This document shows positions 21,756 to 45,800 of a DNA stretch of 64,000 nucleotides, in pieces. Source of the DNA: an uncultured Isosphaeraceae bacterium (GTDB taxonomy: Bacteria; Planctomycetota; Planctomycetia; Isosphaerales; Isosphaeraceae). Positions within the stretch are counted from its first letter, which is position 1. Every line of letters begins with the position of its first letter. The notes under the pieces are model-generated. The model did no database searches and was not told the DNA's origin. It was given only the letters and a program-made list of their open reading frames with translations. The stretch is taken from NCBI GenBank assembly GCA_945957605.1, contig CAMFLR010000015.1:124001-188000 (forward strand), read 5' to 3'. A program made the position numbers and the translations under genes.

Positions 21756-23765
21756 ATGGTCGCGAGCGGATTGTTCGGAATTGTGGCGTTAATTGGCCTC
21801 GTCGGTCCAGGCCAGCCTGCGAATTCAACGCTTGGGTTTCGGCTTCAGGACCACCGAGGAACATGGCACACGCTCGACGAAGCGCGCGATCGCAAGATCG
21901 TCGTCCTGGTGTTCCTCGGCACGGAATGCCCGCTGGCCGAGGCATATGCCCCCAGGCTCGCAAAAATCGCCCGTGACTTTGAAGGTCGCGGTGTTAGCTT
22001 CCTGGGTATTGATGCGAATCAGCAGGATGGCCCGGTCGCAATCGGCCGATTCGCCGACAAGCATGGCTTGCCCTTCCCGATTCTCAAGGACGTCGGAAAC
22101 GAACTGGCCGACCGACTCGGTGCCGAGCGGACCCCCGAGGTTTTCGTTCTCGACTCCTCACGGACCGTCCGTTACCGAGGCCGAATCGACGACCAGTATG
22201 CCATCGGAATCCATCGCCCCGCGGCCACTCACAACGACCTCGTCGACGCCCTTGATGCCGTTCTATCTGGACGAGACATCAAAACGACGAAGACAGAAGC
22301 AGTCGGATGTAAGCTCGGCCGGGCGTCGAAATCGAATGGTGGTAGCAAGGTAACTTACACGAAAGAGGTTTCGCGGATCTTGCAGTCGCATTGCGTGACT
22401 TGTCACCGGCCCGGCGAGATCGCTCCCTTCTCGCTGATGAATTATCGCCAGGCCGCCGGATGGTCGAGCATGATTGCCGAGGTTGTCGATGAAGGACGGA
22501 TGCCCCCCTGGCACGCCTCTCCCGAACATGGCAAATTCGCCAATGATGCCCGGCTCTCAAATGAAGAAAAGAAAACCATCCGCGACTGGGTTGCCGCTGG
22601 CTCGCCCGAGGGAAACCCGGCGGATTTACCCCCATCGCCCCAGTTCGTCGAAGGCTGGCAGATCCCCAAGCCCGACCTTGTCCTGGAAATGCCTCGCGAG
22701 GTTGAGATCCCGGCGGAAGGGTCGATGCCTTACGAGCTCGTCGAGATCGATCCGAAGCTGACGCGAGACGTCTGGGTACGGGCGTCACAGGTGCGCCCGG
22801 GAAACCAGGCGGTCGTCCATCACGTTGTTGTTTTTGTGCTGCCGCCTGGCGTGACAAAGATCGACGAGGAGGGTGGCGATTTCCTCGCCGCCTACGCTCC
22901 CGGAATGCCGCCTCGCGTGCTGCCCGACGGCGTGGCGAAACGCATTCCGGCGGGGTCGAAGATCGTTCTGCAACTCCACTACACCCCGCGCGGGACGAAG
23001 CAAGTCGACCGTAGCAAGATTGGGCTCGTCTTCGGCGATCCGGCAGCGGTACACAAGGAATTGATGTCGGGCATGGCGCTTAACTTCCGCCTTCAGATTC
23101 CGCCCGGCGAGCGTGACTATATTTCACGAGCCGATTTCCGTTTCTCGCAGCCTTCAATGCTCCTCTCCGTCCTGCCGCACATGCACCTGCGCGGCAAGTC
23201 GATGAAGTTCGTCGCCGAGTATCCCGATGGACGACGCGAAGTCATCCTCGACGTCCCTCGTTACGAGTTCGACTGGCAGAATCTCTACGTTCTCGATCAT
23301 CCCAAGCCGATGCCCGAGGGGACGATCCTGCACACCGAAGCTCGCTTCGACAATTCCGCCGATAACCCGAACAATCCCGACCCGCGACGGGCCGTCACGT
23401 TTGGCGAACAGACAAAGGATGAGATGCACGTCGGCTACCTCAACTTCGTCCTCGCCGACCAGGACCTTACTCTCGGTGCGCCCACCTCAAAACGCCTTGA
23501 GAACGGCCAGTACGAAGTGACCTTTCGACACCGCCCTGAAGGGTCAGTGAAGTCGGTGGCGGTCGTCGGCACATTCACCGATTGGAAGGAACGACCAGTT
23601 GCCATGACGGGGCCGGACGCTCAGGGGACGTATTCGACAACAGTCACGCTTGCCCCAGGCGCACATGAATACAAGTTCTTGATCGACGGGCAGAACTTCC
23701 GCCATGATCCAGGCAATCCGGATTCGGCGGGGTTCTTTCACAACAGTTTGATTAGGCTTCCTTGA
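21756..23765 (+). CDS. Four-part secreted protein: redoxin, cytochrome c motif, PHM-like copper monooxygenase core, carbohydrate-binding-like E-set
   Basis: A 669-residue exported protein; signal peptide MVASGLFGIVALIGL, with GAGGG upstream of the ATG. Residues about 28-180 are a thioredoxin-fold redoxin (AhpC/TSA) with a single Cys58 in TECPLAEAY instead of a CxxC pair. Residues about 205-280 contain a haem-binding CVTCH (Cys213, Cys216, His217) and MPPWH. Residues about 300-565 resemble the copper type II monooxygenase fold: His355-His356, His408 (LQLHYTP), His475-x-His477 (PHMHLRG) and Met557 (DEMHVGY) fall in the order and rough spacing of the PHM copper ligands. Residues about 582-669 look like a glycogen-binding/CBM48-like E-set (VGTFTDWKERP...GAHEYKFLIDG). 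It is probably a periplasmic redox enzyme; substrate unknown. Confidence 0.85.
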   Translation: MVASGLFGIVALIGLVGPGQPANSTLGFRLQDHRGTWHTLDEARDRKIVVLVFLGTECPLAEAYAPRLAKIARDFEGRGVSFLGIDANQQDGPVAIGRFADKHGLPFPILKDVGNELADRLGAERTPEVFVLDSSRTVRYRGRIDDQYAIGIHRPAATHNDLVDALDAVLSGRDIKTTKTEAVGCKLGRASKSNGGSKVTYTKEVSRILQSHCVTCHRPGEIAPFSLMNYRQAAGWSSMIAEVVDEGRMPPWHASPEHGKFANDARLSNEEKKTIRDWVAAGSPEGNPADLPPSPQFVEGWQIPKPDLVLEMPREVEIPAEGSMPYELVEIDPKLTRDVWVRASQVRPGNQAVVHHVVVFVLPPGVTKIDEEGGDFLAAYAPGMPPRVLPDGVAKRIPAGSKIVLQLHYTPRGTKQVDRSKIGLVFGDPAAVHKELMSGMALNFRLQIPPGERDYISRADFRFSQPSMLLSVLPHMHLRGKSMKFVAEYPDGRREVILDVPRYEFDWQNLYVLDHPKPMPEGTILHTEARFDNSADNPNNPDPRRAVTFGEQTKDEMHVGYLNFVLADQDLTLGAPTSKRLENGQYEVTFRHRPEGSVKSVAVVGTFTDWKERPVAMTGPDAQGTYSTTVTLAPGAHEYKFLIDGQNFRHDPGNPDSAGFFHNSLIRLP

Positions 23766-24620: not shown

Positions 24621-26162
24621 TCAGTCGTTCCGAAGTGCGGTGACCGGATCAACTCCCGCAGCGCGCCGAGCCGGGTACAGTGCGGCCACAATTGTCACAC
24701 CTACAGTGAATAGGATAACCGTGGTTGCAATCCAGCTCGGGAAGGCAAAGATCGAACCCTTGAGATCGATCTTCATATCGCGGTGGACCATCGAACGCAC
24801 CCAGCCGTCGCTCGGGAACGAGATCAGCCACGCCAATAGTAGCCCGACCACTCCGCCCGTCAGGCCGATCAACCCTCCCTCGATCACGAAGATGCTCTGG
24901 AGTTGCCAGTTCGTCGCGCCGACGGCTTTCATGATGCCAATCTCGCGTCGCCGTTCGAGAACGCTCATGAGCATCGTGTTGGCAATCCCCAGCGATGCAA
25001 CGAGCAAGGCCACGCCGGCCACGCACGTCATACCGCCGAAGATGAGCAAGTATGTGAGGCGTTCGCGTTCGATGAATTCGACAATTGACCGGCTTCCGAA
25101 ACCGAGCGAATCGACCTTATCGACAACTTCCTTCACGTTGCGAATGTCGTCGACAAAGAGAACCGTCTGGGCGACTCCTTGGTCTCGACGCGCGGGATCG
25201 CGGAATGTCAGGTCGACGGCGGTCTTTCGTGGCAGAACAAGATCGGTGTTCGCGGGGAATTGGGCCCACGATTCCTTGCGTTCCTCGTCAGTCATCTCGC
25301 GGAAGATCCCCACGACGCGGAAATCCTCGGCGATCACTGCGGGATCGGCTGCCGATGAATCTCGTTGGAGAGCTTTTCGTAAGGCAGCGATTTCCTCACC
25401 GGTGAGATTGAGCCGGTCGAGTGACCCAGGAAGTTGCCAGGCGAGCTGACGAATGGCCGACTGCTCGTCGCGGTTATTACTGGCTTTCGAACGGTCTGCC
25501 AGCGAGACGTTGAAGCTTGGTCCGTCTTCGTGCCCCCGGATTTCAACACGCAAAGGCTTGCCGATTACCTGATCGATATCCGCATCGTCGATCAGTCCGA
25601 TCCGATGCGCGAACATCTCGGAAAGCAGGACGGAATGCTCGTCGTCCGACTCGAACGCGCGGCCAGCAACGATTCGTTTCACGAACTCGGGATCTTCACC
25701 TGCGCCGGAGGAAACGCTCGCTTCTTCAGGACGGTTGCCCAGAGTCGCAACGACAGGCCCGCCTACAAGTGGGATCATCAGTCGCACGTGGGGGATTTGC
25801 GAAAGTGCTTCCAGCCGAGGCGGAGTCAGGTTCACTTGCTCCTGGCCGGGACTGCCCTGTTGGCGCTGAGCGAGAATCTTGCGAATACGCTCGCGACGCT
25901 CGGGCGACATCCGGCCCGAGACCTTCACGTCGTCATCCTTCTTGGACTCGGTCGCTCGCCACCTCGGAAAAACCGTTATCTTTCGCGACGCGTCTCCCTT
26001 GCTCGACTCACGTTCGATCGTTCGTTGCACGCCTTCGTCGATCGACAGACTCGCCGCCAGCACGAACGCGCCGAAGATGACGCCGAGGGTCGTCAGGCAC
26101 GTGCGCATTTTCTGCTGGCCAAGCGAGGCCAGGGGCAATCCGATCAGGTCGATCCAGCGCAC
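24621..26162 (-). CDS. MacB/LolCDE-like ABC transporter permease (FtsX family)
   Basis: A 513-residue permease starting at GTG 26162 with GGAG about 10 nt upstream. A first transmembrane helix after QQKMRTCLTTLGVIFGAFV is followed by a long extracytoplasmic domain of the MacB_PCD type (about 45-370), and then three C-terminal transmembrane helices (about 375-500) carrying the FtsX signature region LGIANTMLMSVLERRREIGIMKAVGAT. The order matches mechanotransmission-type exporters such as MacB, which couple cytoplasmic ATP hydrolysis to periplasmic movement rather than classic import. The gene is 24 bp downstream of its ATPase partner. No membrane-fusion protein gene is adjacent, so the cargo and whether it joins an outer-membrane channel are unknown. 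Confidence 0.9.
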   Translation of the reverse strand: MRWIDLIGLPLASLGQQKMRTCLTTLGVIFGAFVLAASLSIDEGVQRTIERESSKGDASRKITVFPRWRATESKKDDDVKVSGRMSPERRERIRKILAQRQQGSPGQEQVNLTPPRLEALSQIPHVRLMIPLVGGPVVATLGNRPEEASVSSGAGEDPEFVKRIVAGRAFESDDEHSVLLSEMFAHRIGLIDDADIDQVIGKPLRVEIRGHEDGPSFNVSLADRSKASNNRDEQSAIRQLAWQLPGSLDRLNLTGEEIAALRKALQRDSSAADPAVIAEDFRVVGIFREMTDEERKESWAQFPANTDLVLPRKTAVDLTFRDPARRDQGVAQTVLFVDDIRNVKEVVDKVDSLGFGSRSIVEFIERERLTYLLIFGGMTCVAGVALLVASLGIANTMLMSVLERRREIGIMKAVGATNWQLQSIFVIEGGLIGLTGGVVGLLLAWLISFPSDGWVRSMVHRDMKIDLKGSIFAFPSWIATTVILFTVGVTIVAALYPARRAAGVDPVTALRND

Positions 26163-26186
26163 GAGGCGATTCTCCGTTGCTTCCGA

Positions 26187-26897
26187 TCAATGAATGTCTG
26201 CAGCGATCTGGCCGTCAAGCAAACGAACAACCCGGTCCGTGCAACTCGCGGCCAGCTCTTCGTCGTGAGTGACGAGAACAAGCGTGGCGGAGTGCTCGCG
26301 GACGTGGTCCAAAATCAGGGCCATCACCTGCCGTGCTGTCTGACTGTCAAGATTGCCAGTCGGCTCATCCGCGAGAACAACGCGCGGATGGTTGACGAGC
26401 GCGCGCGCGACGGCGACTCGCTGGCTCTCGCCACCGCTCATCTGGGCGGGGCGATGACTCAGCCTCGCTCCAAGCCCGACGGATTCAAGCGCCTTCCGGG
26501 CAGTCGCTCGCCGATTGCGGGGTGATTGGCCGGCGAAGACCATCGGCAGTTCGACATTCTCGACGGCGGAGCGCGATGGGATCAGGTTGAACGACTGGAA
26601 GATCATGCCGACTGTCTTCGAGCGGAATCGCGCCATCTCTCGGCCAGAAAGTTGGTGGAGATCCTTGCCGCCGACTCGCAAGCCGCCTGAAGTAGGACGA
26701 TCGAGGCCGCCCAGCAAGTTCAATAGCGTCGACTTGCCTGACCCTGACTTGCCCAGCAGGGCGACTCGCTCACCGTCGGCGATCTCGAACGATAGTCCGC
26801 GAAGCGCGTCGACCTGGGCGTCTTTCGCGCCGTACGACTTTCGTACCTCGACCGCTCGGATCGCCACGCCGTCCCGTTCTTCGCGATCCGACTCCAT
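26187..26897 (-). CDS. ABC transporter ATP-binding protein, LolD/MacB type
   Basis: A 236-residue ATPase, normal length for the LolD/MacB class. Walker A GKSGSGKST at about 50-58, Q-loop in GMIFQSFNLIPSRSAVENVELP, signature MSGGESQRVAVARAL, Walker B VVLADEPTGNLD and the switch His in VTHDEEL are all intact. The GNLD D-loop and the SFNLIP Q-loop context are typical of ATPases pairing with FtsX-like permeases. It is the first gene of the exporter pair, with the permease 24 bp downstream. Confidence 0.93.
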   Translation of the reverse strand: MESDREERDGVAIRAVEVRKSYGAKDAQVDALRGLSFEIADGERVALLGKSGSGKSTLLNLLGGLDRPTSGGLRVGGKDLHQLSGREMARFRSKTVGMIFQSFNLIPSRSAVENVELPMVFAGQSPRNRRATARKALESVGLGARLSHRPAQMSGGESQRVAVARALVNHPRVVLADEPTGNLDSQTARQVMALILDHVREHSATLVLVTHDEELAASCTDRVVRLLDGQIAADIH

Positions 26898-27060: not shown

Positions 27061-28362
27061 TCAAGGGTGATCCGCTCGCCGTGGTCCTCGCAGTTCCGAT
27101 GCGGGAACGCCCCGCTTTTTCGCGAGCGGGTCGATGTACCACCGATAGTCTCCCGCGTCCGACGCGAACATGAACGGCTTGTTTTCCTTCCACCAGATAT
27201 CCCACGCATCGGCGGAATCATTCTGCGGCCCCGCCGGCACATATCGCTTCAAGAGGCGACCGGCGCGAGCTTTCTTGGCGTCGTCTGCCGACCGCAAATC
27301 GGCGAGCACCTTGTCGAAGAATTCAGGCTGATCGAAGGCCACGTTGATCGCAACCAGATCCTCATCCATCGCTAACAATTGCGACGCATTCGGACTAAAG
27401 AATCGCGAATGCTCATCAGCCCAAGCCGCCATCGCGTCGCGATCCTTCAGCTTCGACACGGTTGCCCATACATCGTCAGTCACAAGCTCTTTGCAGAGAT
27501 TCAAAGGATACGACGGAGTTCTTAACCAGCGCCCCAATGCCGATCGAGTGCGAGCGACCGGTCCAGCGAAGAGGGATGGCGTGATTGCGATAGGGCGATC
27601 TTCGGAGAATCGGCTGATGTAAGCGATTGAATTCAGCAGCAATTGTTGACCCGGCTCGTTCAATTCCGCGGGCGATTCTTCGAACCCGAAGTGAAGTAGG
27701 TTGCCCTGCCGCCAAAGCGCGGCGGCGGTCGGCGTCTTGGCGTTGACGCCTCCGCAGAAGAACTCGACATCGGGAAGTTTTGCGAAATCGAGGGAATATG
27801 TGCACCAACCAGGCATCGGCCTTTTCTTTTGAATATCTGCAACGAGTGGTAGCACCTTGATATTTGGCTCCTTCAACTCGTGCGTGAAGTCCGCGGGGGT
27901 TGGAATCGAGATCATTTTGCTTCGATCGATGGCGAACGGCCGCTCGAAAACTTCGTGCTGCCGCAAGTCGTAGGCGAGCGGGTCGAGACAGGTACAGCCT
28001 GCTCCCCCCTTCAGTTTCCAGGAAACGGCGAGGTTCAACCCTGCGCTGCCCAGCAGGACCGTAGGCTTGTTCCATTCTTCTCGCTTGCCCAGTGGCGACG
28101 AAACCGTTCGCAGGCCGTTCGCCGATCCATTCTGCGGCCAGTCGAGAAGCACGACATCAAAGCGGTCGGCGTCACTCTTCTTGAAAGACTCGCGAGGTAT
28201 CGCCTCAATCAGTGCGACCTTGCCTTTCAAATAGTTCACATAATCCGCAGGACGTTCAGAACCGACATACAGCACCTTGAGATCCGCGAGCTCTGCCGCC
28301 CGCGCGAATCCAGTCGTCACAAGGCAAAGGATCAGAACGCCGAACATCTGTGCGGTTTTCAT
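27061..28362 (-). CDS. Secreted protein with possible ThuA/glutamine-amidotransferase-like domain
   Basis: A 433-residue protein with a signal peptide (MKTAQMFGVLILCLVTTGFARA). Residues about 28-250 start with an alpha/beta pattern (LKVLYVGSERPADYVNYLKGKV... DVVLLDW), followed by a Gly-rich segment with GSAGLNLAVSWKLKGG, consistent with a flavodoxin-like/ThuA-type fold. The motif HFGFEESPAELNEPGQQLLLNSIAYI near 235 resembles the C-terminal part of such domains. The rest is helical and ends Arg-rich. I see no clear Cys-His-Glu triad, so the amidotransferase reading concerns fold only. Its ATG overlaps the stop of the upstream lipoprotein gene by 4 bases, indicating translational coupling and probably joint function in the envelope. 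Confidence 0.75.
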   Translation of the reverse strand: MKTAQMFGVLILCLVTTGFARAAELADLKVLYVGSERPADYVNYLKGKVALIEAIPRESFKKSDADRFDVVLLDWPQNGSANGLRTVSSPLGKREEWNKPTVLLGSAGLNLAVSWKLKGGAGCTCLDPLAYDLRQHEVFERPFAIDRSKMISIPTPADFTHELKEPNIKVLPLVADIQKKRPMPGWCTYSLDFAKLPDVEFFCGGVNAKTPTAAALWRQGNLLHFGFEESPAELNEPGQQLLLNSIAYISRFSEDRPIAITPSLFAGPVARTRSALGRWLRTPSYPLNLCKELVTDDVWATVSKLKDRDAMAAWADEHSRFFSPNASQLLAMDEDLVAINVAFDQPEFFDKVLADLRSADDAKKARAGRLLKRYVPAGPQNDSADAWDIWWKENKPFMFASDAGDYRWYIDPLAKKRGVPASELRGPRRADHP

Positions 28363-28958
28363 CGGATTGCCTCTGCTTTGGAGATAAGTGTTGCGGATAA
28401 CTCCAGCTTGTCAGGCGGCCAGCACAATTCGTCGTTGCATGCCTGGTAACGAAGTACAGCAGTTACAGGCATTGATGTCTGTAGCGAATTGAGCTTCAAG
28501 GATCGTTTCAACAAAACGGCAGAACGATAGACCTGGATGCACTCGGCCTCCGGCTTCGGAAAAATCCACTCCCCGTCGAATTCCACACCCGGCGGCAGTT
28601 TCGCTTCGATCTTGAGTGGAGTGAATTTTCCACCATGGTCCGCCTCAGCGCGAACGTAATACGTCGCCGCAATTCGGACAACAACCTGAATCTCCGCCTT
28701 GAATGGACCAGTCTGGCGGCATGACATCGCAGCTTTAACAGGTTCGCTCGCAGAGGGTTCTGGAGCGTCCGGCGGTTCAGCGGCGATGGACGTCACGGAT
28801 TCGGCCTGTGCCGCCGCGCTGGGCAGGTCTTTTGATCGCTCAAGCGCGGTCGGCGTCGGTGCCGTTGATTTTGGCGAGGAACCGCAACCTGCGCCGAGAA
28901 CGATGGACAAGCAAAGCAGCCAGTGAATTCGGCGAAACTCACCCATCCTGTGGCTCAT
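28359..28958 (-). CDS. Lipoprotein with DsbD N-terminal (DsbD-alpha)-like domain
   Basis: A 199-residue lipoprotein: basic N-terminus, hydrophobic helix and lipobox LGAGC with Cys25; a start at ATG 28946 (four codons in) is equally possible. A Pro/Ala/Ser/Glu linker runs to about residue 75. The C-terminal 120 residues resemble the alpha domain of DsbD, the periplasmic immunoglobulin-like domain that passes electrons: KLPPGVEFDGEWIFPKPEA, then TAVLRYQACNDELCWPP with Cys174 and Cys179 in the CxxxxC arrangement of DsbD-alpha. The membrane and thioredoxin-like parts of DsbD are absent, so it is a free-standing, lipid-anchored version. Its stop overlaps the next gene's start by 4 bases. Confidence 0.8.
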   Translation of the reverse strand: MSHRMGEFRRIHWLLCLSIVLGAGCGSSPKSTAPTPTALERSKDLPSAAAQAESVTSIAAEPPDAPEPSASEPVKAAMSCRQTGPFKAEIQVVVRIAATYYVRAEADHGGKFTPLKIEAKLPPGVEFDGEWIFPKPEAECIQVYRSAVLLKRSLKLNSLQTSMPVTAVLRYQACNDELCWPPDKLELSATLISKAEAIR

Positions 28959-33821: not shown

Positions 33822-36800
33822 ATGAGCCGCCACGAGCCCCCCGCGCGTCGTCGTCCCGTCTCCCCGGCCCGTTTCAAGTCGCGACGTTCAGGACGCTCTC
33901 GCGCTCTTCGGCTCGAGGCGCTCGAGGAACGCGCGTTAATGGCCTACTCGGTGACGCTGGGCAACGTGGCGAATCTCTCCGAAGGGTTCGGCTTCGGCAG
34001 CACCATCGACGGCCTGAACTCGGCGCTGAACCTCAGCGTCGGCACAGCCGAGGATGCGGCCACCTATACGAAGCCGCTTGGCGTTTCGCAATCGAATGCG
34101 TTCACGGAGGAATTCTGGCTCTATCCCCAGGCCAACGCGCAGGGTGAATTGTTCCGCTTCGTAAATACCGGCAACAACGGACTGAACGCAGTCACAATCT
34201 CTGGCGCGGGCAAAGATATCGCTTTCGATGGGCTCGGCTCCCGAATCGCGCTGAGCGGCGTGCTCAATTCTAACGCATGGAATCACGTCGCCGAGACTTT
34301 CGACGGCACGAACGTTCGCGTGTACATCAATGGAAATCAAGTCTATACGTCGGGCGCCTTCGGCGGGGCCAAGGTCTCGGAACCATCGCAGCTCATTATG
34401 GGCTCAACGTCTAACCAACCAGGCGTCATCGACGAGCTTCGAATCTGGAGCGTCGCGCGGAGTCAGAGCGAAATCCAGAAAGGGATGCTCGACCTACCCG
34501 TCGGCAACGAGCCAGGGTTAGCCGCCTACTACAAGTTCGACGGCAATCTGAACGATGCGACCGGCCGCAACGCCGCCATGATTTCGCTAGGTACACCGTC
34601 GTACGTGAACAATCCTGCGCCACAGGTGGGATACGTCACCGTCAACGTCGACCAGCCGGTGAAGACGGGTATCGGCCTGCCCGTGACTTACAACATCGCT
34701 GGCGGCTCGGCGACTGAGGGGACGGATTACACTGACTCGCACTTCCGCACCGATGCCTTCAATCCCGCAACCGACCAGCGCGGCATTATCATTCCCGACG
34801 GCCAGACGAGTGGCCGTATCTACTTCGTCGCGACCGGCGATGCACTCGCAGAAGGCACCGAAACGATCAACGTTGCGCTCACCGCGCAGAGTTCTTACAA
34901 CGTCGGCGCTGCGAGTACCGCAAGCCTCACGTTAACCGATAATGATGCTTACAAGCCCGGATTGGCCGGCTTCACGGTCGATGGGCAGGCGGTTTCGAGT
35001 GACGCAGCGGTAGGCGGAATTCCCTTGTATCTCGGCCCGACAACCGGGTCGGCCGGAATGGACTTCCGGCTCACCAGCCAGCCGACGGGCAATGTCACAA
35101 TCCAACTTGCGGGTAATGGTTACGTCTTCTTCAAGGTGGGTAGTGCGGTTCAGACGTTCCTGCCACTCACCTTCACGAAGACGAACTGGGACCAGGCCCA
35201 GCGCGTTGTGCTGAGCTCGACGATCACGTCCCCGTTCAACGGCCAGATCATCGCAACGCAGACGGCCGGCCCGGCGTATCTTTCATCTCAAATCAAGCTG
35301 AACGTCACAAATATCCCGCCGACCAGCGCACAGGTCGGTGAGGGAAGTGCCACAGACGGAGCACCAATTACTCCAACCGCCAATCTTGTTGCAGTTCACG
35401 GTGCGCTCGAAGGAAATGGAACCGGCGCCTTGATTCGTGCCACGCTCGACGCCCCCGCGCCGGCCGCGGGACTAACACTCAACTATCAATACTCAATTAC
35501 ATCGGCAACCTCCGTCGGCACGTTTACAGGCGGCGATCTCGGTGATGGGCTCGACCTCGACGGCAATTTCGTCTACGCCGTGAACATGGCGGGTGCTGCC
35601 GCTGGTGCAATTCGCGACGCTACATTTACGACGCCCAACGTGCCTGGTGTGACGTATAAAGCGCCGAACGCGATCACCAACTTCTTCGTGGGGAACTTCG
35701 GCACGAGCCCGAACGACGCCGCACTGAAATCGGCCATGCAAGGCGTGCGATTTACGGCCGATGGCACTCCTGTCACGCTCGACCTCGCCAATTTGACGCC
35801 GGGTGTCGAGTACAAGCTCCAGCTTCTCTTCGCCGAGGCGAGTTCCAATCGCGGATTCGACGTACTGGTCGACGGTCAGACCATCGCCAACGACTTGAAC
35901 GTCGGACAGGTCCAGGGCGGCGTTGCGAATCGGACCAAAGGTGTCGTCGTTACCGATGATTTCGTTGCCACTGCATCCACTGTGCATATCGTTCTGAATG
36001 GTCAGGCAGCCCCCTACCCCGACAAGAATCCGACCCTCAACGCCTTCACGCTCGAACAGCTTCCTTCGGCGAAGATCGCGCCGCTCTCGGGGACGGTTCA
36101 AGTCCAGCCTGGTGCTCGTAATGTCGACATCCCGATCGTCGTGAGTGACGACTCGATTGCAGGTCCGTCGCGAACCGTGGCGATTGCGCTCACAAGTGGC
36201 ACTGGCTACAACGTCGGGACCAGTCCTTCGGCCAGCGTCGTCATCACCGACGATGACAAACCGGGCATTGGCCTGAGCAACTTCACGCAATCGCCCACCG
36301 CAACTGGAACCGGTGCGCCGAATGATACACAAACGCAGGCGACCGATCTGGGTACGTTCGTTGGCGGCCGCATTTCCAAAAGTGGCGCGATCTCCTCGAC
36401 GAACACTGTCGACTGGTACAAATTCACGATCGACACAAAGGTCGCCGTGCCGCAGTCGATCGTCCCGACAGTTACCGGAGCGGGCTCGATTCTGTTCCAG
36501 GTCTACAACTCGACGGGAAGCCTCGTCGACTCCACAACGCTCGTCAGCGGCCAGTCCGGTCTGCTTTACCTGGGCGGCCGGCCTTCAGGCACTTATTTCC
36601 TCAAAATATCCGACCCGACCGGCAAGGGCGGTAATTACTCGTTCCTCGCGCACGGCACTGATGTCGAGCCCAACGATAACTTCGGCGTCCCGGTTGACCT
36701 GGGTACGGCGCTTCCAGGTGCGGCTTACGATGGAACAATCGCGACAGCCAACGATCAGGACTTTTACAAATTCACGTCCGACGATCGAACGGCAACCATC

Positions 36801-39800
36801 GACTCTGTAACCGTGACGATCGACAATGCGAACGCGCCGGTATCGTTGATTCTTTACGATGCCAATGGAAATCCCATCGACGCGACTTCGGTTCTCAAAC
36901 CCGAAGCAACGGGAGCAAGCCTGACGCTGGGCCTGAGCGTAGCCTCGAAGCGCGGCCCTGGGACGTATTTCCTTCGCGTCGCCGGAGTGAACGGCGCAAC
37001 AGGACATTACACGATCTCGTTCGCCGGAATGCGGATCGATGATTACGTCGGTGTGTTCAGCGACAACTATTCAACGATCGTCCTGGAGCAATCGCCGACA
37101 AGCCCCGTATCGCAACAATTCGGCCTGCGGCTCAGTTCGCAGCCCAGCGGTCCGGTGACACTAACGCTCGCAACCGCCAGTTCGGGCACCAGCGACGCAG
37201 CAACGCTGTCGACGAAGACCGTCACCTTTACGACGACGAATTGGGACGTCTATCAACTTGTCACCGTCACTCCAATCGACAACCCAATGCCAACCGGCCT
37301 GCAGGATTTCACGATCACCGCCACCGGCGCGAGCAGCGATCCTCAATACGCCAATCGGATCCTGCGTTTCGACGTTCTGGTCGAGGACGACCAGCAGTTC
37401 ATACAACCTCCCGTTACCTCGACGCCCCAAGACCCAAACCTGCCCCACGCGGTTTTGCCCAATCTGGGCACGAGCGTGACGGAAGGTGGCACGATCTCAT
37501 TTAACGCGGGACTCACGAAACCCGCGAGCACTGCGACATACGTAGGCATTGGGTTCGACCCGAGTAGCACGTTAATGGGCAAAGACTTCACCATTTCCAG
37601 CGGCCTTGTGACCGACCAACATGCCTTTTCCGACGCATTCACCGCGCTAAAGCTCGGCGGCGCATACAACGTTCCGAGGTTCGTTGATATCAACGGCGAT
37701 GGCCTGCTCGATCTCTTCGTCGGCTCCGCCACCGGCCCCTTGCGATTCTTCCGCAACGAAGGAACGAAAACAGATCCGCGATTCGTCGAGAAAACCGGCA
37801 CCGCCGAGGATCCGTTCTCAGCAATCGACACCGGGTCGCTCGGCGGCTATCTCTACCCCGCTTTTGCTGACGTCGACGGTAACGGCACGATCGATCTCGT
37901 GCTCGGTTCGAGAACCGGCCTGACGTATTTCCGCAACGACGGCACGCCGCAAATCCCTCGCTTCAGTTCGATTTTGCCAATCGCCGGATACAACCCCTTC
38001 CAGGCGATGTACGGTATCGGCGGTTCGTTCTTCGCGCCGGTGTTCGCCGATCTGTACGGCACGGGCAAGCCCGACCTCTACATCCCGCGCCAGGGAAATG
38101 GGACGATCGCCTACTTCAAGAACGTCGCCGGAACGTTTACTCGCAACGATGCGGCGAGCCCCGTCTCGGGTCTCGGCGTGGGAACAACCGACACGCCCAC
38201 GCTTTCATTCGCCGATCTCAATGGCGACAACGTGCTCGACGCCATCGTCGGCCTGGGCGGTGGGTCGTTTGCAAGATTGAACCTCGGCACACGCACCTCG
38301 CCAAATCTCGCAACCACCAACTACACGCGGTTCTTCCAGGTGACGACCGGAATTAGCCGCCCCGCGTGGACAGTTGCCGATATCGACGGCGACGGCATAA
38401 CGCGGCTCTACACAGGCGACAGCGCGAGCGGCCTGTTCGCGATGCAGTCTTACCTGGCAGCGGTCATCCCCGCAGGCTCAGTGCAGACGACCGTCACGCT
38501 CAGGACCGTAGATAACCCCATCGACGAAGGCAGCAACCGCACGATCGACGTCCGTCTCCTTCAGTCGTCGACGTACATCATCGACTCCGCCTTCGGCTTC
38601 ACTGATACGAACGACCTCAATGGCAACGGCAACAGGAGCGAGACGCTTAGACTGCCGATCGCCGGTAGCATTGCTCTGGTGAACAACGACAAGGCTGGAA
38701 TCGTTGTCGCTCCACCGAAGGGAACGACCGTCAACGAAACCGGCACGACACAGACTCTCGCCATCCAACTCGCCTCGCAGCCGGTGGCGAGCGTGAGCGT
38801 TTTTGTCACGTCGTCAGATCCATTGCTCGGCCCTATCGCGATCGGTACGAATGCGGGAGCGGCGTCGGTAACGCTTACATTCACGCCGGCCAACTGGAAT
38901 GTTCCGCAGAGCGTGAATGTACTTGGGGTTTCCGACTCGATTGACGACGGCGATCGCCAGTTCAAGGTAACTGCGACGTCGTCGAGTGCTGACGTTCCGT
39001 ACGATCGTTTGAGCGGCGCAGTGAACGTTTTCACACACGTCAATAACGACACTTCAGGCGTCACCGTCTCCAGCCCGCAGCAAACGCTGCAGGGGCGTGC
39101 AAACGTTTTCGGCGTCTCGCTGAATACGCAGCCCGTCGGGCAGGTTCATGTCACGATGACGCCCGTCGATGGCCAGATCTCAATCGACGGCGCTACTCCG
39201 GGCGATCCCGAGACCCTTACCTTCGACGCTTCGAACTGGAACCTACCGCAGTACGTTCAGGTCACTGCCGCCGATGACGGCATCGTTCAGTATTTCCACA
39301 CCAGCCAGATCCAGTTCAGCGTTCAAACCGGCACCAATCAGGCTGGATCGACGCCCGGCGTGCACAACACAAACACGACCGCCTACGACCTCGGCACCCT
39401 GGCCGATGGTTTCAACTGGTCGGGCATCCCTTTGAGCCAGACTTACAGCAACGGCGCCGCCGGGAACAACGGCCTCTGGTTCAAGTTCACGCTGACTCGC
39501 TACGCCTCTCCGCGCGATGCGTTCCGCACTCTGGGCGGGCCGACGACTCCAGACCTTACTCCCAGCATGTTCCTCTACAACAGTGATTTGACGAAGAGCT
39601 ACGGGCAGAGCCAGAAACGTGGATCGTCGACGCTCAACGGCATCACAACTCCAGCGACGTCGACACTCTCACTCGCGGGGCTCGCCCCGGGTGTCTACTA
39701 CCTCCAGGTGTCGAGCCTCTACAACCAGCCCGACACCTTCCGGTTTCTATACGATAACTCTGATCGTCTCTACGAATCGGTCGCGCCTCCACCAATCACA

Positions 39801-42800
39801 GTGTCTATCAAGGACAACGATCTACCGACTGCGCAAATCACGCCTGGTCTGGCCCCTTCCGAAGTCTTCAGCCAGCCGGGCACGTTCGTCGTCAAGCTTA
39901 ACGCGCCTGCCCCTGCTCCGCCGGGTGACTCGGGCATCAAGGTAAACTTCCAGATCACCGGCGGCATGGGAATTCTCGGGGATTCGACCACTCCGCAGGA
40001 TGATTTCTCGATCAACGCCGACTTCTTCGATCCCGTCACCAAGACAGGTTGGGTGCGCGTCGCGCCTGGCGACGTGCAGGCGAACATCGGCGTCATTCCT
40101 GTCGACAACAAGCTCGTCTCCAGCGTGCCGCTCTCGCTGCGCAGCTTCACGTTCGACCCAACCAACGGCTACCAAGTCCGCGTGGCGATCGATCCCGCGG
40201 CGCTCAACGAAGTGCCCAAGGTGGGAAATACATACGTTCTCAAGAAGGGGACGATCATCACCGGCATTTTGTCTGCGTCGAAGACGGTGACCTTCACCGT
40301 CCGCGCAGATACGACTCTGCTCGAGACGTACTACACATCCTCGGCCGGCACCGCGCTGGAATACGCTGCCGCCGTGCCGACGTCGCAAACCGAGGCTGAC
40401 GCAGCCGCCGCGACTGCGTTCGGTTTCAACAACACCTTCGCTGGCCGGCTTCAGGCGAAGGATGTCGAAGTCACCCTCCTGCCAGGCTCGGGATACGTTC
40501 TGCCGCAGGCACCTGGTACATCAAGCACCGACACCACGCGCACCGTTGCGAGGATGACGATTTTCGACGACGACGTGCCTGGTGTGCGTGTTACGCGCGT
40601 CGGTGAAGACACGCCAATCGCCGAGGGCGCCGCACCTGTTGCCTATGCGGTTTCTTTACTCGCGCAGCCGTCAAGGGCGGTGACAATCACGCTTACGCCG
40701 CAAGGGAACATCGCGTTCGTCAACCCGGCGAATCCTGGAACGGGTTCATACAGCGCGACGACCTATACGCTCGACATGACGAACGTGCCGTCTAACCTCG
40801 ATCTCCGCCTCGCCACTCTTGTGAACACCGATTCGGGCTGGACCGCCTCGCTTCAAGCCAAGCTTCGTACCGTGAGCTACGGAGCCTCGAATGCGACGAT
40901 CGGACTCACGCTTGCCGACACGAAGGGCGGCGGGAACGCGGCAGTGACCTATCAGGTCCCGGCCGCGGGGGCGACCGACGCTGGCGGTCAGCCGCTCAAG
41001 GGAACGTGGGACCGATTCCAACCGCTGATCGTCTCAAACCTCACGCCGCGCGCCGATGCTTCCGGCAGTTATTTTGAGATGACGCTGACGCTGAACGGCA
41101 AGGCGCAGACAATTCGCATCAACGCGAAAACAGCAGCCACGCCCACAGCCGCGACCACGACGACGCTTACTTTCGACTCCTCGAACTGGTTCCAGGCGCA
41201 GACGGTATTGGTGCAGGCGAAGTCCGACGCGATTGCTCAACCGGGGTCATGGTATGAGGCCGACCTTGGCGTCAAAACAGCGAGCAGCGACCTCAACTGG
41301 AACGGCCTGCCAATTCCGCCCGTCGCCGTCCACGTTGCTGATATACAGCTCGATAGCGGCGCGACTGCGCAGGCAATCACCTCTGGCTTCGAAGCCCTGA
41401 AGAACAGTCTCTCCGACGTGAAGCTGCCGCTCGTTGGAAGCTTGCTCGCCTTCGCGCCCCAAGTTGGCGACGTCTTCGATTCGATCGAGCAGCCGCTGAC
41501 CGACGACCTCAAAGGCACGTCGGGGGTGACTGTCGACAATTTCTCGCAAATGGCCGACGTGTCACTCGCGGGCGAGACTGACGACTCGTCGCACTCGTTC
41601 TTCGATGACGTCACTGTTGAACCTCAGGCCGATTCCGACGGCGTGAGCCTGAGCATCCATCTCGAGAAAACCTGGAACCTCTTTGGCCTGAATCTCGATG
41701 GCGATCTCGGTCTCGATGCACTTGGGTTGAGCCTCACGACCGAGGGCTCAATCAACGCGACCGCCACGCTGTCGATCGACTTCACCTTCGGCCTGAGCCG
41801 GACGTTTGGCTTCTACATCGACACGGCGAAAACTGGCATCGACGCGGGATTGAAAGTCGCACTCGATGGCTTTGCGGCAACCGGTCATCTCGGTTTCCTT
41901 CAGCTCGACCTGGCCGATGATGCCGAGAATCCTTCCGAGCTGTCGATCGCCTTCCACGCCGGGCTCAACGACCTCGACAATTACCAGACCATTCAGTTCT
42001 TCGACGTCAATGGCGACGGCCTGCTTGCGCCGTCGGCGTACCCGTACCCGATCGGTGTCGATTCGAACAAGGATGGCAAAATCGACGCGAAGGCTGACGG
42101 CTCACCGAATACCGTAGTGACGACCGTGGCGGAGCCCTGGCAGAACGTGAACTCGAAGGGCGTGCCGGTGAACGGCTCGGGCGCTGCCGCCGATTTCCCA
42201 ACCGTGAGCACCGTCAAGGCAACGTCGCTCGGCCAGGCTGGAGGCGCGGCAAACTTCAATGGCAATAACACGTTTGACGAAGCTGTGAATGAGCCGAACG
42301 AAGGCGTTTATCGCAAGGTCACGCGAGGCGCGGTCACAATCTACTACTTCGACGCCAACGATAACGGCAAGCTCGACGTTTCGACGCGAGGCGTTGATCC
42401 GTACACAACATCGTGGACCTCGCTGACTTCGGCTCAGAAAGATCAAAGCGAGATCTGGATCGCTTCCAACAACTCACGATGGGTGAACGGCGCAACCGGC
42501 ACCGTGAACCCGTTCCTGATCCAGACCAAAGGCACCGGCGCTAACGTCGTTTACTACTTCGACGCCAGCGGCAACACTGTCCTGGATGCCAACGAGCAAA
42601 TCAGTGCCAAGCTCCGGAAGCAGCTCGACAAGAACAAGGACGGCATCCTCAATCCGGCTGTGCAAAAAGATGGCGAAGGGACGTTCGTACGAGGGACGGG
42701 AATCGCGTTCAACGATCTCAACGGCAACGGCAGGCTCGATCCGGGCGAGCAGTTCGTTAACTCCGGATTCGACGACCTCCAGTTCTCCGACGACGCATTC

Positions 42801-45800
42801 ACAACGAGCGGAAACACGACGTTCCTCGACCTCGACGGAACCGGCAATGTCAGCCAGTTCCCGATGCGGACGACGTCCGACGGCACGCGTTATATCGACC
42901 TCAACAGCAACGGCGTACTCGATTCCCTCGACCCGCAGGCGACCGGCGACGATCCCATCACCGTGCCGTCGCAATACAACGGCCAGTCGTTGTTCATCAC
43001 CGCGGCAATCAAGACCGACGCTGGCGGCCGATTCCTCGACCTCATCGGCAACGGAGTCTTCGACGCCAACAAGGACATTCGCCTCGATGTCAAGGACAGC
43101 AACAGCGTCGCACTCGGGTTCGGCACGAAGACGCCTGCGGCTTACTTCGGCATCACCGACTATGCCACGACGTTTACCTTCTTCGACGCCGACGGTAATG
43201 GCAAACTCAACAGCGCGGATTACCAGGTTCTCGTGAGCGCGGGACAGGAATACCTCGACCTCGATCGCAACGGCATGCTGACAGGCGGTCCCGACGATCC
43301 TCTTGAGCCGACGGCCGGGCAGAACAACACCTTCGACCTATCCAAGCTGGGATCTGCCACGAGTGTCGTGAAGTTGCTAAACGACGGCGACCGTCTCACA
43401 CTCACCGAACTGCGTAACTTTGTCTCAGGCGTGCGGTCGGACAATGCGACGAAGACCGATCAATTGAAGGCTTCGCTCAACCTCTTCAGCTACAGCTTCA
43501 CTGGCTCGGCCAATCTGGGACTCACGGCCGTCACCAGCGTCGAGGGTAATCCGGATTTCCCTTCCCTCTCGTTCAATCTCGGCATCAGCTTCCCGCTATT
43601 CAACTACGGCGACCAGTCCGAAGCGGCCGACACCGGGTTCACGGTCGACTTCAACGACGTAACGCTCGACCTAGGTTCGTTCCTCACCAGCTTCGCAGAA
43701 CCTGTGCTCGATACCGTCGATCAGGTTCTCACCCCGTTCAAACCGATCATTCAAGTTCTCAACGCCGACACCAAACTGCCCGCGGCGCTGGGACTTGATA
43801 GCTTCTTCGAGGCTGATGGCCGGCCGGGTACCTCGCTCCTGGAAATAGCCAGGAAGATTAGCGGCGGCGATCCGCAAATTGATGCCGCGATCAAATTCGC
43901 CGATACGCTCACGCAGATCGTCGACACGGTCGATAGCCTGAAGTCGATGGTTGCCTCAGGTCAATCAACGATCATCAACTTCGGCGACTTCTCGATCGAC
44001 GATTTCCACGCCGCCAGCGACGACGCAGCCGACACCGCGAGCAATTCGCGCGGCACGACTCGTAGCGATGGTCAGCGGCCGGCGTCTGCCGTTACACGCA
44101 ACCCCGATGGCTCGACCTCGGGTCTCAATCGAACCAGTGGTGCTGCGGCTCAGGCCGCGAACGTCGCGAATTCGAAGGGAAAATCGAGCGTCTTCAGCAA
44201 GCTCTCGCAGCTTGATGGGTTCTCTTTCGACATCCTGAATCCGGACACAATCATTTCACTGTTGATGGGTGAAGAGGACGTGAACCTCATCACCTACGAC
44301 ATCCCCGACTTCAACGTCAACTTCAAGGTGTCGAAGACATTCCCAATCTGGGGGCCACTCGCAGGCCTGCTCGAAGGCAATTTCAACGTCGGCACTGATT
44401 TGGCCTTCGGTTTCGATACGCACGGCTTCCAGGAATGGGCCAAGGCCGACTTCGCTGTCGATCAGGTCTATCAGATCTTCGACGGCTTCTACGTCAGCGA
44501 TCTCCACGGCGGAACCGATCGCCCCGAGTTGTTCGCCAGCGCAACGATTGCCGCCGGGGCTGGAATCGATGTGGGAATTGCAAGCGGGTTTGTCAAAGGC
44601 GGCGTAACGGGGACGATCGGGCTCGATCTCGTCGACCAGGGCGAGGCCGACGGCACTTCCGACGGCAAGGTCCGTGGCAGCGAAATCATCGACGCGCTCA
44701 AGACCGATCCCCTCTCGCTGTTCCGCCTTAACGGCTCGGTCGACGCCTTCCTCGGCGCGAAGATCGAAGTCGACTTCTTTTTCTTCTCAGCCACCGTATA
44801 CGAAGAAACTTTCGCGACCTTCAACCTCGCGAAGTTCACGCTCGACTCGAACGGTTTCAGCGGAACAAGCGACGTCGGCAAACTTCAGGGCGGCCCAATC
44901 AACGGCGCGACCGTCTGGCTCGACGCCAACGGCAACGGCATCCTTGATCCAGATGAGCCAAATACACTCTCTGCGGCGGATGGCTCATATCAACTTCTCC
45001 TCCCAGATGGATACGACACTGGAACGGGCATGATTCGTTCGCAGGGTGGAGTCGACATCACAACCGGGCTACCCGCGACGACCAGTTTTAGCGGAATGCT
45101 CGGCCAGACGGTCGCCACGCCTCTCACGTCGCTGATCCAGGCGGTGATGCAGCAGCCAATCCCAATCTCCACCGCCGACTTCAACCACGATGGCATCATC
45201 GACCAGTCCGACGCCGATGCCTTCCTCACAGCCTATAGCGACGGCAATCCACAGACTGATATCAACAAAGACGGAAAAGTCGACGACCGAGACCTCGGCC
45301 TTTTCGACGTCTATTACGAGATCGCTCTTGGCGGAGGTGTGCCGACCTTCAACCAGGCCGAACAATTGATCCTTCTCGCAAACGGACTCGATCCCTCGAT
45401 CGATCTTGGGAACACGGCCGATTTCGACGGAGCGCTTGCGAACGACCCAACCAGCGAAGCCGTCCTCACAAGAACTGATGAAACCGAGGTCATCCAGGCT
45501 GGACTACGTGCCTGGCTCGCAGGCGCCGCCGGCCTGCCGTTCAACGACCCGAAGACGAACGTGATTCTCTCTGACGCAATCAACCGCGCCCTCGCAACGC
45601 AGATCGTGACTGGCCGATTCGACCTGCGCGACCCAGCAACCATCGAAGCCGTCGCCCAAAACTGCTACCTCAACGTTCAGAAGGCACTAGCCGACGCAGG
45701 CCTTGGCACGCTTCAAACCAGCAACGACTTCGAGGGCCACGTCGCGTCGCTCGTGCGAGTAGCGAGCAAGGTCGCGGACGTCATGGACAAGCTTGCGGCG

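Follow-up and report, generated by a model that had tools for sequence, protein, structure and literature searches.

A planctomycete protein uniting a redoxin, a haem-c-like module, a PHM/DBH-like copper core and an AMPK-type E-set: a candidate exported dicopper monooxygenase

Overview

The 8.8 Mb genome of an uncultured Isosphaeraceae bacterium encodes a 669-residue protein in which a redoxin, a haem-c-like module of the CxxCH...MPPW kind, a copper core resembling those of PHM and DBH, by which animals produce amidated peptides and noradrenaline respectively, and an E-set of the AMPK/CBM48 type follow each other on one chain. The best reading of the protein, given a probability of roughly 0.55, is an exported dicopper monooxygenase with the PHM/DBH fold and its own haem as electron donor, together with a redoxin and an E-set for targeting or oligomerisation. 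A preliminary description had already placed the four parts on one chain, and Pfam matches, sequence motifs and the structural model agree with it. As judged by fold match and alignment, neither outcome that it had named as refuting came up, namely a fold that scatters the His/Met set or a C-terminus foreign to carbohydrate-binding E-sets.

Domains were called by Pfam with the family cut-offs, and structures were matched by Foldseek and VIA-align to an AlphaFold model built from a 32-sequence alignment (mean pLDDT 86.7). Conservation was counted over 113 deduplicated relatives, or over 110 aligned rows for the redoxin positions; part of the shortfall in these counts comes from gaps where a row, L099 for instance, is truncated or seems to be frameshifted. 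The features are collected in Table 1.

Table 1. Features of the redoxin-haem-copper gene, with positions in the window and residue conservation or supporting method.
Feature	Position	Strand	Support
Whole gene, 669 aa	21756..23765	+	ATG start; - strand genes on either side
Hydrophobic N-terminus, residues 1-22, probable signal peptide/anchor	21756..21821	+	no Lys/Arg
Redoxin domain of the 3u5r/2cvb kind, residues 23-192	21822..22331	+	Pfam and VIA
C58, N-terminus of redoxin helix 1 (TECPLA, no CxxC)	21927..21929	+	110/110 rows
C185, C-terminal end of redoxin domain (VGCKLG)	22308..22310	+	109/110 rows
Haem-c-like module, residues 196-300	22341..22655	+	Pfam Haem_bd, near cut-off
Haem attachment motif C213-V-T-C216-H217	22392..22406	+	C213, C216, H217 each 111/113
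M249-P-P-W252, probable distal axial Met	22500..22511	+	M249, W252 each 111/113
Two-domain PHM/DBH-like copper core, residues 304-571	22665..23468	+	Foldseek, VIA
H355-H356, predicted CuH ligands	22818..22823	+	H355 111/113, H356 111/113
H408, third predicted CuH ligand	22977..22979	+	113/113
H475-M-H477, predicted CuM ligands	23178..23186	+	H475 112/113, H477 112/113
M557, predicted CuM ligand (PHM Met314)	23424..23426	+	112/113
E-set of the AMPK1_CBM/CBM48 kind, residues 587-669	23514..23762	+	Pfam, profile matches
W610, on first glycogen-binding Trp of AMPK beta	23583..23585	+	18/20 E-set members

A PHM/DBH-like copper core

The preliminary description had suggested comparing a predicted structure with PHM, and the modelled core does match it (Foldseek E 1.2e-15); superposition by VIA on PHM and DBH gives Z scores of 21-22 over about 250 residues with an rmsd of 2.5-3. 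The six copper ligands that had been read in the order HH, H, HxH and M were confirmed as a conserved set, and their retention in 111-113 of the 113 relatives argues that the pattern did not arise by chance. Further conserved residues of the core are W507, Q508 and N533, and position 406, two residues ahead of H408, is a glutamine in 96/113.

In DBH, copper is held by His262/263/333 and by His412/414/Met487 (PMC4846438), and a profile of the core aligns residues 355/356, 408 and 475/477 on these ligands. Searched on its own, the profile of the CuM half had no match in the PDB at E values up to 10, and M557 was therefore aligned directly with a fragment of rat PHM that was checked against the PDB chains and differs from them at 1 of 97 residues. 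M557 falls on the methionine of SSDEM314 in an alignment of low probability that is locally clear and weak alone, and this pairing agrees with the end of the structural alignment (residue 571 on 327).

The core stays below the Pfam cut-offs of both halves (PF01082, 11.8 vs 30 bits; PF03712, Cu2_monoox_C, 19.3 vs 23 bits), which are curated profile thresholds and not structural criteria; PF03712 is matched at E up to 0.01 in 25 of 50 relatives. No cysteine follows residue 216, so the core does without the disulfides of animal PHM and is classed as PHM/DBH-like rather than as an orthologue of either enzyme. A lytic polysaccharide monooxygenase was also considered and rejected, since no Pfam or PDB match to such an enzyme was obtained and the core is PHM-like.

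Haem module, redoxin and export

The module ahead of the core scores 26.6 bits against Pfam Haem_bd, 0.4 below the cut-off of 27. It is modelled as helical when taken alone (pLDDT 83.5); in this form it gave no significant Foldseek match, the best being cytochrome c6C at E 0.97, and a profile search of the PDB with the module was likewise without a significant match. The attachment motif and the MPPW motif, whose M249 is the probable distal haem ligand, are conserved among the relatives (Table 1). Covalent attachment of haem c is plausible, as the cytochrome c maturation protein ResB is encoded in the same genome. That such a module acts as electron donor to the core is a plausible proposal with a partial parallel: DBH carries an N-terminal DOMON domain, of a class that binds haem or sugar, yet its own copy lacks haem ligands (PMC4846438).

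The redoxin is the best-scoring domain of the protein (AhpC-TSA/Redoxin, residues 28-140, 2.9e-18) and superposes on 3u5r with a Z of 25.2 over 168 residues (rmsd 1.8). It had been noted to hold only one cysteine of the usual pair. This stands as far as the CxxC motif is concerned, which reads C-P-L-A with A61 in the partner position (a cysteine at +3 from C58 occurs in 2/113 relatives), and does not stand for the domain as a whole, which has a second conserved cysteine, C185. The protein has four cysteines in all (58, 185, 213 and 216), C58 and C185 being the only ones outside the haem motif, and C185 could serve as the pairing partner of C58. It aligns on the terminal GC motif of 3u5r (SMc02350), 2cvb (Thermus thermophilus) and 2ywi, which share with the redoxin the fold (Z 24-25), the absence of CxxC, the cysteine of helix 1 and this C-terminal motif. 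The three are single-domain proteins, annotated merely as uncharacterised or as probable isomerases. Disulfide exchange of the thioredoxin/ResA type was considered and rejected, CxxC being missing.

The high score of the redoxin and its resemblance to Prx-like proteins also bring to mind a periplasmic protein devoted mainly to redox or copper stress, a Prx-like peroxidase with a haem and copper relay and no hydroxylation of a substrate, as do the numerous copies per genome, for which no pathway is evident. We regard this as improbable. Two paralogues in the source genome, L005 and L006, lack the redoxin and retain the haem and copper parts with all ligands, and the conservation of the six ligands together with W507, Q508 and N533 goes beyond what a copper storage site would need. 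Because L005 and L006 keep both parts, the haem-copper pair appears as the essential unit and the redoxin as an accessory.

The protein is probably exported, judging from its hydrophobic N-terminus, the clearer signal peptides of its relatives and the CxxCH motif. The model is poorly ordered at this end (pLDDT <50 at residues 1-8 and 11-24).

Genomic setting

The window, the whole 64,000-nucleotide stretch that was analysed, contains the complete gene from its ATG at 21756 to the stop codon at 23763-23765. Upstream lie genes for a DNA alkylation repair protein and a Ser/Thr kinase on the - strand. A MacB/FtsX-type permease and an ABC ATPase (24624-26897, -) converge on the gene from downstream; the permease adjoins the gene in five orthologues; four of these retain the ATPase as well, and the contig of the fifth ends there. 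Among relatives this close, such retention is probably no more than ordinary synteny, and the surroundings of the gene revealed no operon and no neighbour that points to a substrate. Upstream of the ABC pair, a lipoprotein-like protein (28362-28958, -) shows weak similarity to the N-terminal domain of DsbD (ACNDELCWPP) and might, on this resemblance, act as a periplasmic thiol partner. The window also encodes a giant protein of 4642 residues with Laminin_G_3, FG-GAP and cadherin/Big repeats (33822-47750, +).

Distribution and exchangeable tails

Proteins of the redoxin-haem-PHM kind occur widely in Planctomycetota and in multiple copies. The 669-residue protein has a match in all 59 near-relative genomes searched, and with a profile of the PHM core 83 of the 199 genomes taken from the phylum as a whole give matches. 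Those close relatives that bear names are MAGs of Isosphaeraceae and Singulisphaera; the wider matches belong to Planctomycetota wherever a phylum is named. Two genomes of one family (G172, contig C233; G215, contig C46) each have a same-strand tandem of three copper-core genes, spaced about 1.8 kb from one another, and G215 has 12 matches. Such proteins are surely present already in automated databases. Our search of the literature found no biochemical study of any family member, and open-access papers on bacterial PHM-like proteins, redoxins and copper monooxygenases in Planctomycetes included none on this architecture.

The majority of the relatives have the order redoxin, haem, PHM core, and what follows the core varies. 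The survey of homologues for the E-set, which the preliminary description had proposed, located it in one clade; within the same family, at least 13 of the 37 genomes have a match that extends to the end of the E-set. The relatives had been collected with a query bearing the E-set, so that the sample is skewed toward its carriers. The rows with an E-set group together on one side of a single branch when a tree is built from the haem-copper part (SH-aLRT 81-84). This branching is most simply read, with moderate support, as a single gain, which would make the E-set a later addition confined to one clade. Elsewhere the core is followed by EF-hands (about 22/50 by Pfam), GAF domains (5 or 6/50) or a short tail. 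Seven paralogues combine the same redoxin-haem-copper chain with differing tails, namely an EF-hand pair, a GAF-like domain, a short hydrophobic tail or none, and the source genome has several more copper-core paralogues without an E-set (contigs C2, C3, C7, C9 and C11; L002-L009). Possibly calcium or a ligand acts through the swapped tails to gate one catalytic core.

The C-terminal E-set

That the C-terminus is related to carbohydrate-binding E-sets, as first proposed, is borne out by a match of residues 597-655 to AMPK1_CBM (7.9e-11; 42.5 bits, above the cut-off of 26.8), CBM_48 remaining below its own (17.8 vs 22.4 bits). A profile of the E-set matches AMPK beta and the GH13 pullulanase 5ot1, and the Trp, Lys, aromatic and Asn pattern of these modules is shared. 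It was read by aligning W610, K640, F648 and N663 with the glycogen-site residues of AMPK; K640 and an aromatic residue at 648 are kept in all 20 E-set members and N663 in 19. Differences from AMPK beta, CBM48 and 5ot1 are that the module sits on a copper/haem protein and that the second aromatic lies one residue out of register. Every domain is under purifying selection between close orthologues, the E-set included: against five of them its pN/pS is 0.15-0.19 and that of the copper core 0.09-0.16, ratios that are rough because synonymous sites are nearly saturated.

A survey of 392 genomes across the phylum with the E-set profile gave only two matches that span the junction with the copper core, all others lying in different proteins. 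Among nine of these that were inspected, the E-set belongs to an alpha-amylase in five cases, to a GGDEF protein in two and to a ParA-like ATPase in one, and the ninth protein carries PA14. The GGDEF diguanylate cyclases and the ParA-like ATPase, from other planctomycetes, have the AMPK-type E-set at their C-terminus. With kin on diguanylate cyclases, a ParA-like ATPase and alpha-amylases alike, an E-set alone is no proof of a sugar ligand, although from its site pattern the module may anchor the 669-residue protein to alpha-glucan.

Such anchoring is the basis of a polysaccharide-directed reading, in which the E-set brings the enzyme to a storage-type alpha-glucan, the source of the substrates that the copper core would oxidise. 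GH13 and AMPK glycogen-binding modules are the nearest relatives of the E-set and the sugar-site pattern is retained; moreover, PSCyt proteins of PVC bacteria combine haem with carbohydrate-binding modules (PMC5615132). We nevertheless consider this reading unlikely, given that the E-set is missing from the majority of paralogues whose catalytic chain is equivalent, that its kin occur on GGDEF and ParA-like proteins, and that no glycan genes adjoin the redoxin-haem-copper gene. The preliminary description had suggested polysaccharide-derived substrates for such a chain. As a common family function this cannot be maintained, because the E-set belongs to one clade and most relatives, its sisters among them, end in EF-hand, GAF or short tails; the idea applies to one clade at most.

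A serious competitor, though a less probable one than the main reading, is a PHM/DBH-type oxygenase whose E-set is purely structural or serves dimerisation. The module occupies the position of the dimerisation domain that DBH carries C-terminal to its core (PMC4846438), and exchange among E-set, EF-hand, GAF and no tail fits a structural part, whereas the conserved AMPK sugar-site pattern speaks for more than that.

Proposed mechanism and significance

In the preferred reading, an exported dicopper monooxygenase with its own haem donor, the domains, folds, ligand positions, conservation and confinement of the E-set to one clade come from sequence or predicted structure, whereas export, the loading of metal and haem, oxygen chemistry, the order of electron transfer, substrate and sugar binding are inferred from the anatomy of the chain. 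The double jelly-roll of residues 304-571 would hold CuH on H355, H356 and H408 and CuM on H475, H477 and M557, and oxygen activated at CuM would be used to hydroxylate a C-H bond in either a small molecule or a glycoconjugate. In the animal enzymes ascorbate provides two electrons, one at a time, and CuH is the site of electron transfer (PMC4846438). Here, the covalent haem c (C213xxC216H217, with M249 as distal ligand) would most likely deliver single electrons to the core in place of ascorbate. The redoxin, through C58 and C185, may be the entry point for electrons from periplasmic thiols or, alternatively, a peroxidase-type guard against H2O2 from uncoupled turnover. The E-set would be a clade-specific module for targeting or oligomerisation, possibly binding alpha-glucan, and a later accessory than the redoxin. 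A bolder version, offered as speculation with rather low odds, is that planctomycetes possess a large group of dicopper oxygenases whose electron wiring (redoxin, haem c, CuH, CuM) is self-sufficient and in which exchange of the C-terminal module (E-set, EF-hand pair, GAF) directs or gates a common catalytic chain, this clade being aimed at alpha-glucan.

The protein bears on two wider questions, the route of electrons to CuH and CuM without ascorbate and the origin of the animal hormone and neurotransmitter monooxygenases. In a bacterial family that has these six ligands and a haem on one chain, internal electron transfer becomes directly testable, and the swappable tails amount to a natural experiment on the control of the copper core.

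Comparison with known systems

The planctomycete PSCyt proteins are PVC-specific multidomain haem-c proteins, some with carbohydrate-binding modules (PMC5615132). None of their Pfam families matched the 669-residue protein, and the consulted passages mention no PHM core in them. With PHM (1phm/1sdw) the protein shares the two-domain jelly-roll core and six copper ligands in the same order; it differs in having about 21% identity, a core without cysteines, a bacterial origin and the fusion to redoxin, haem module and E-set. The likeness to human DBH (4zel) extends beyond core and ligands to the layout, with one extra domain ahead of the core and one behind it. The leading domain of DBH is a DOMON without haem ligands, whereas the planctomycete protein carries a redoxin and a c-type haem module in its place.
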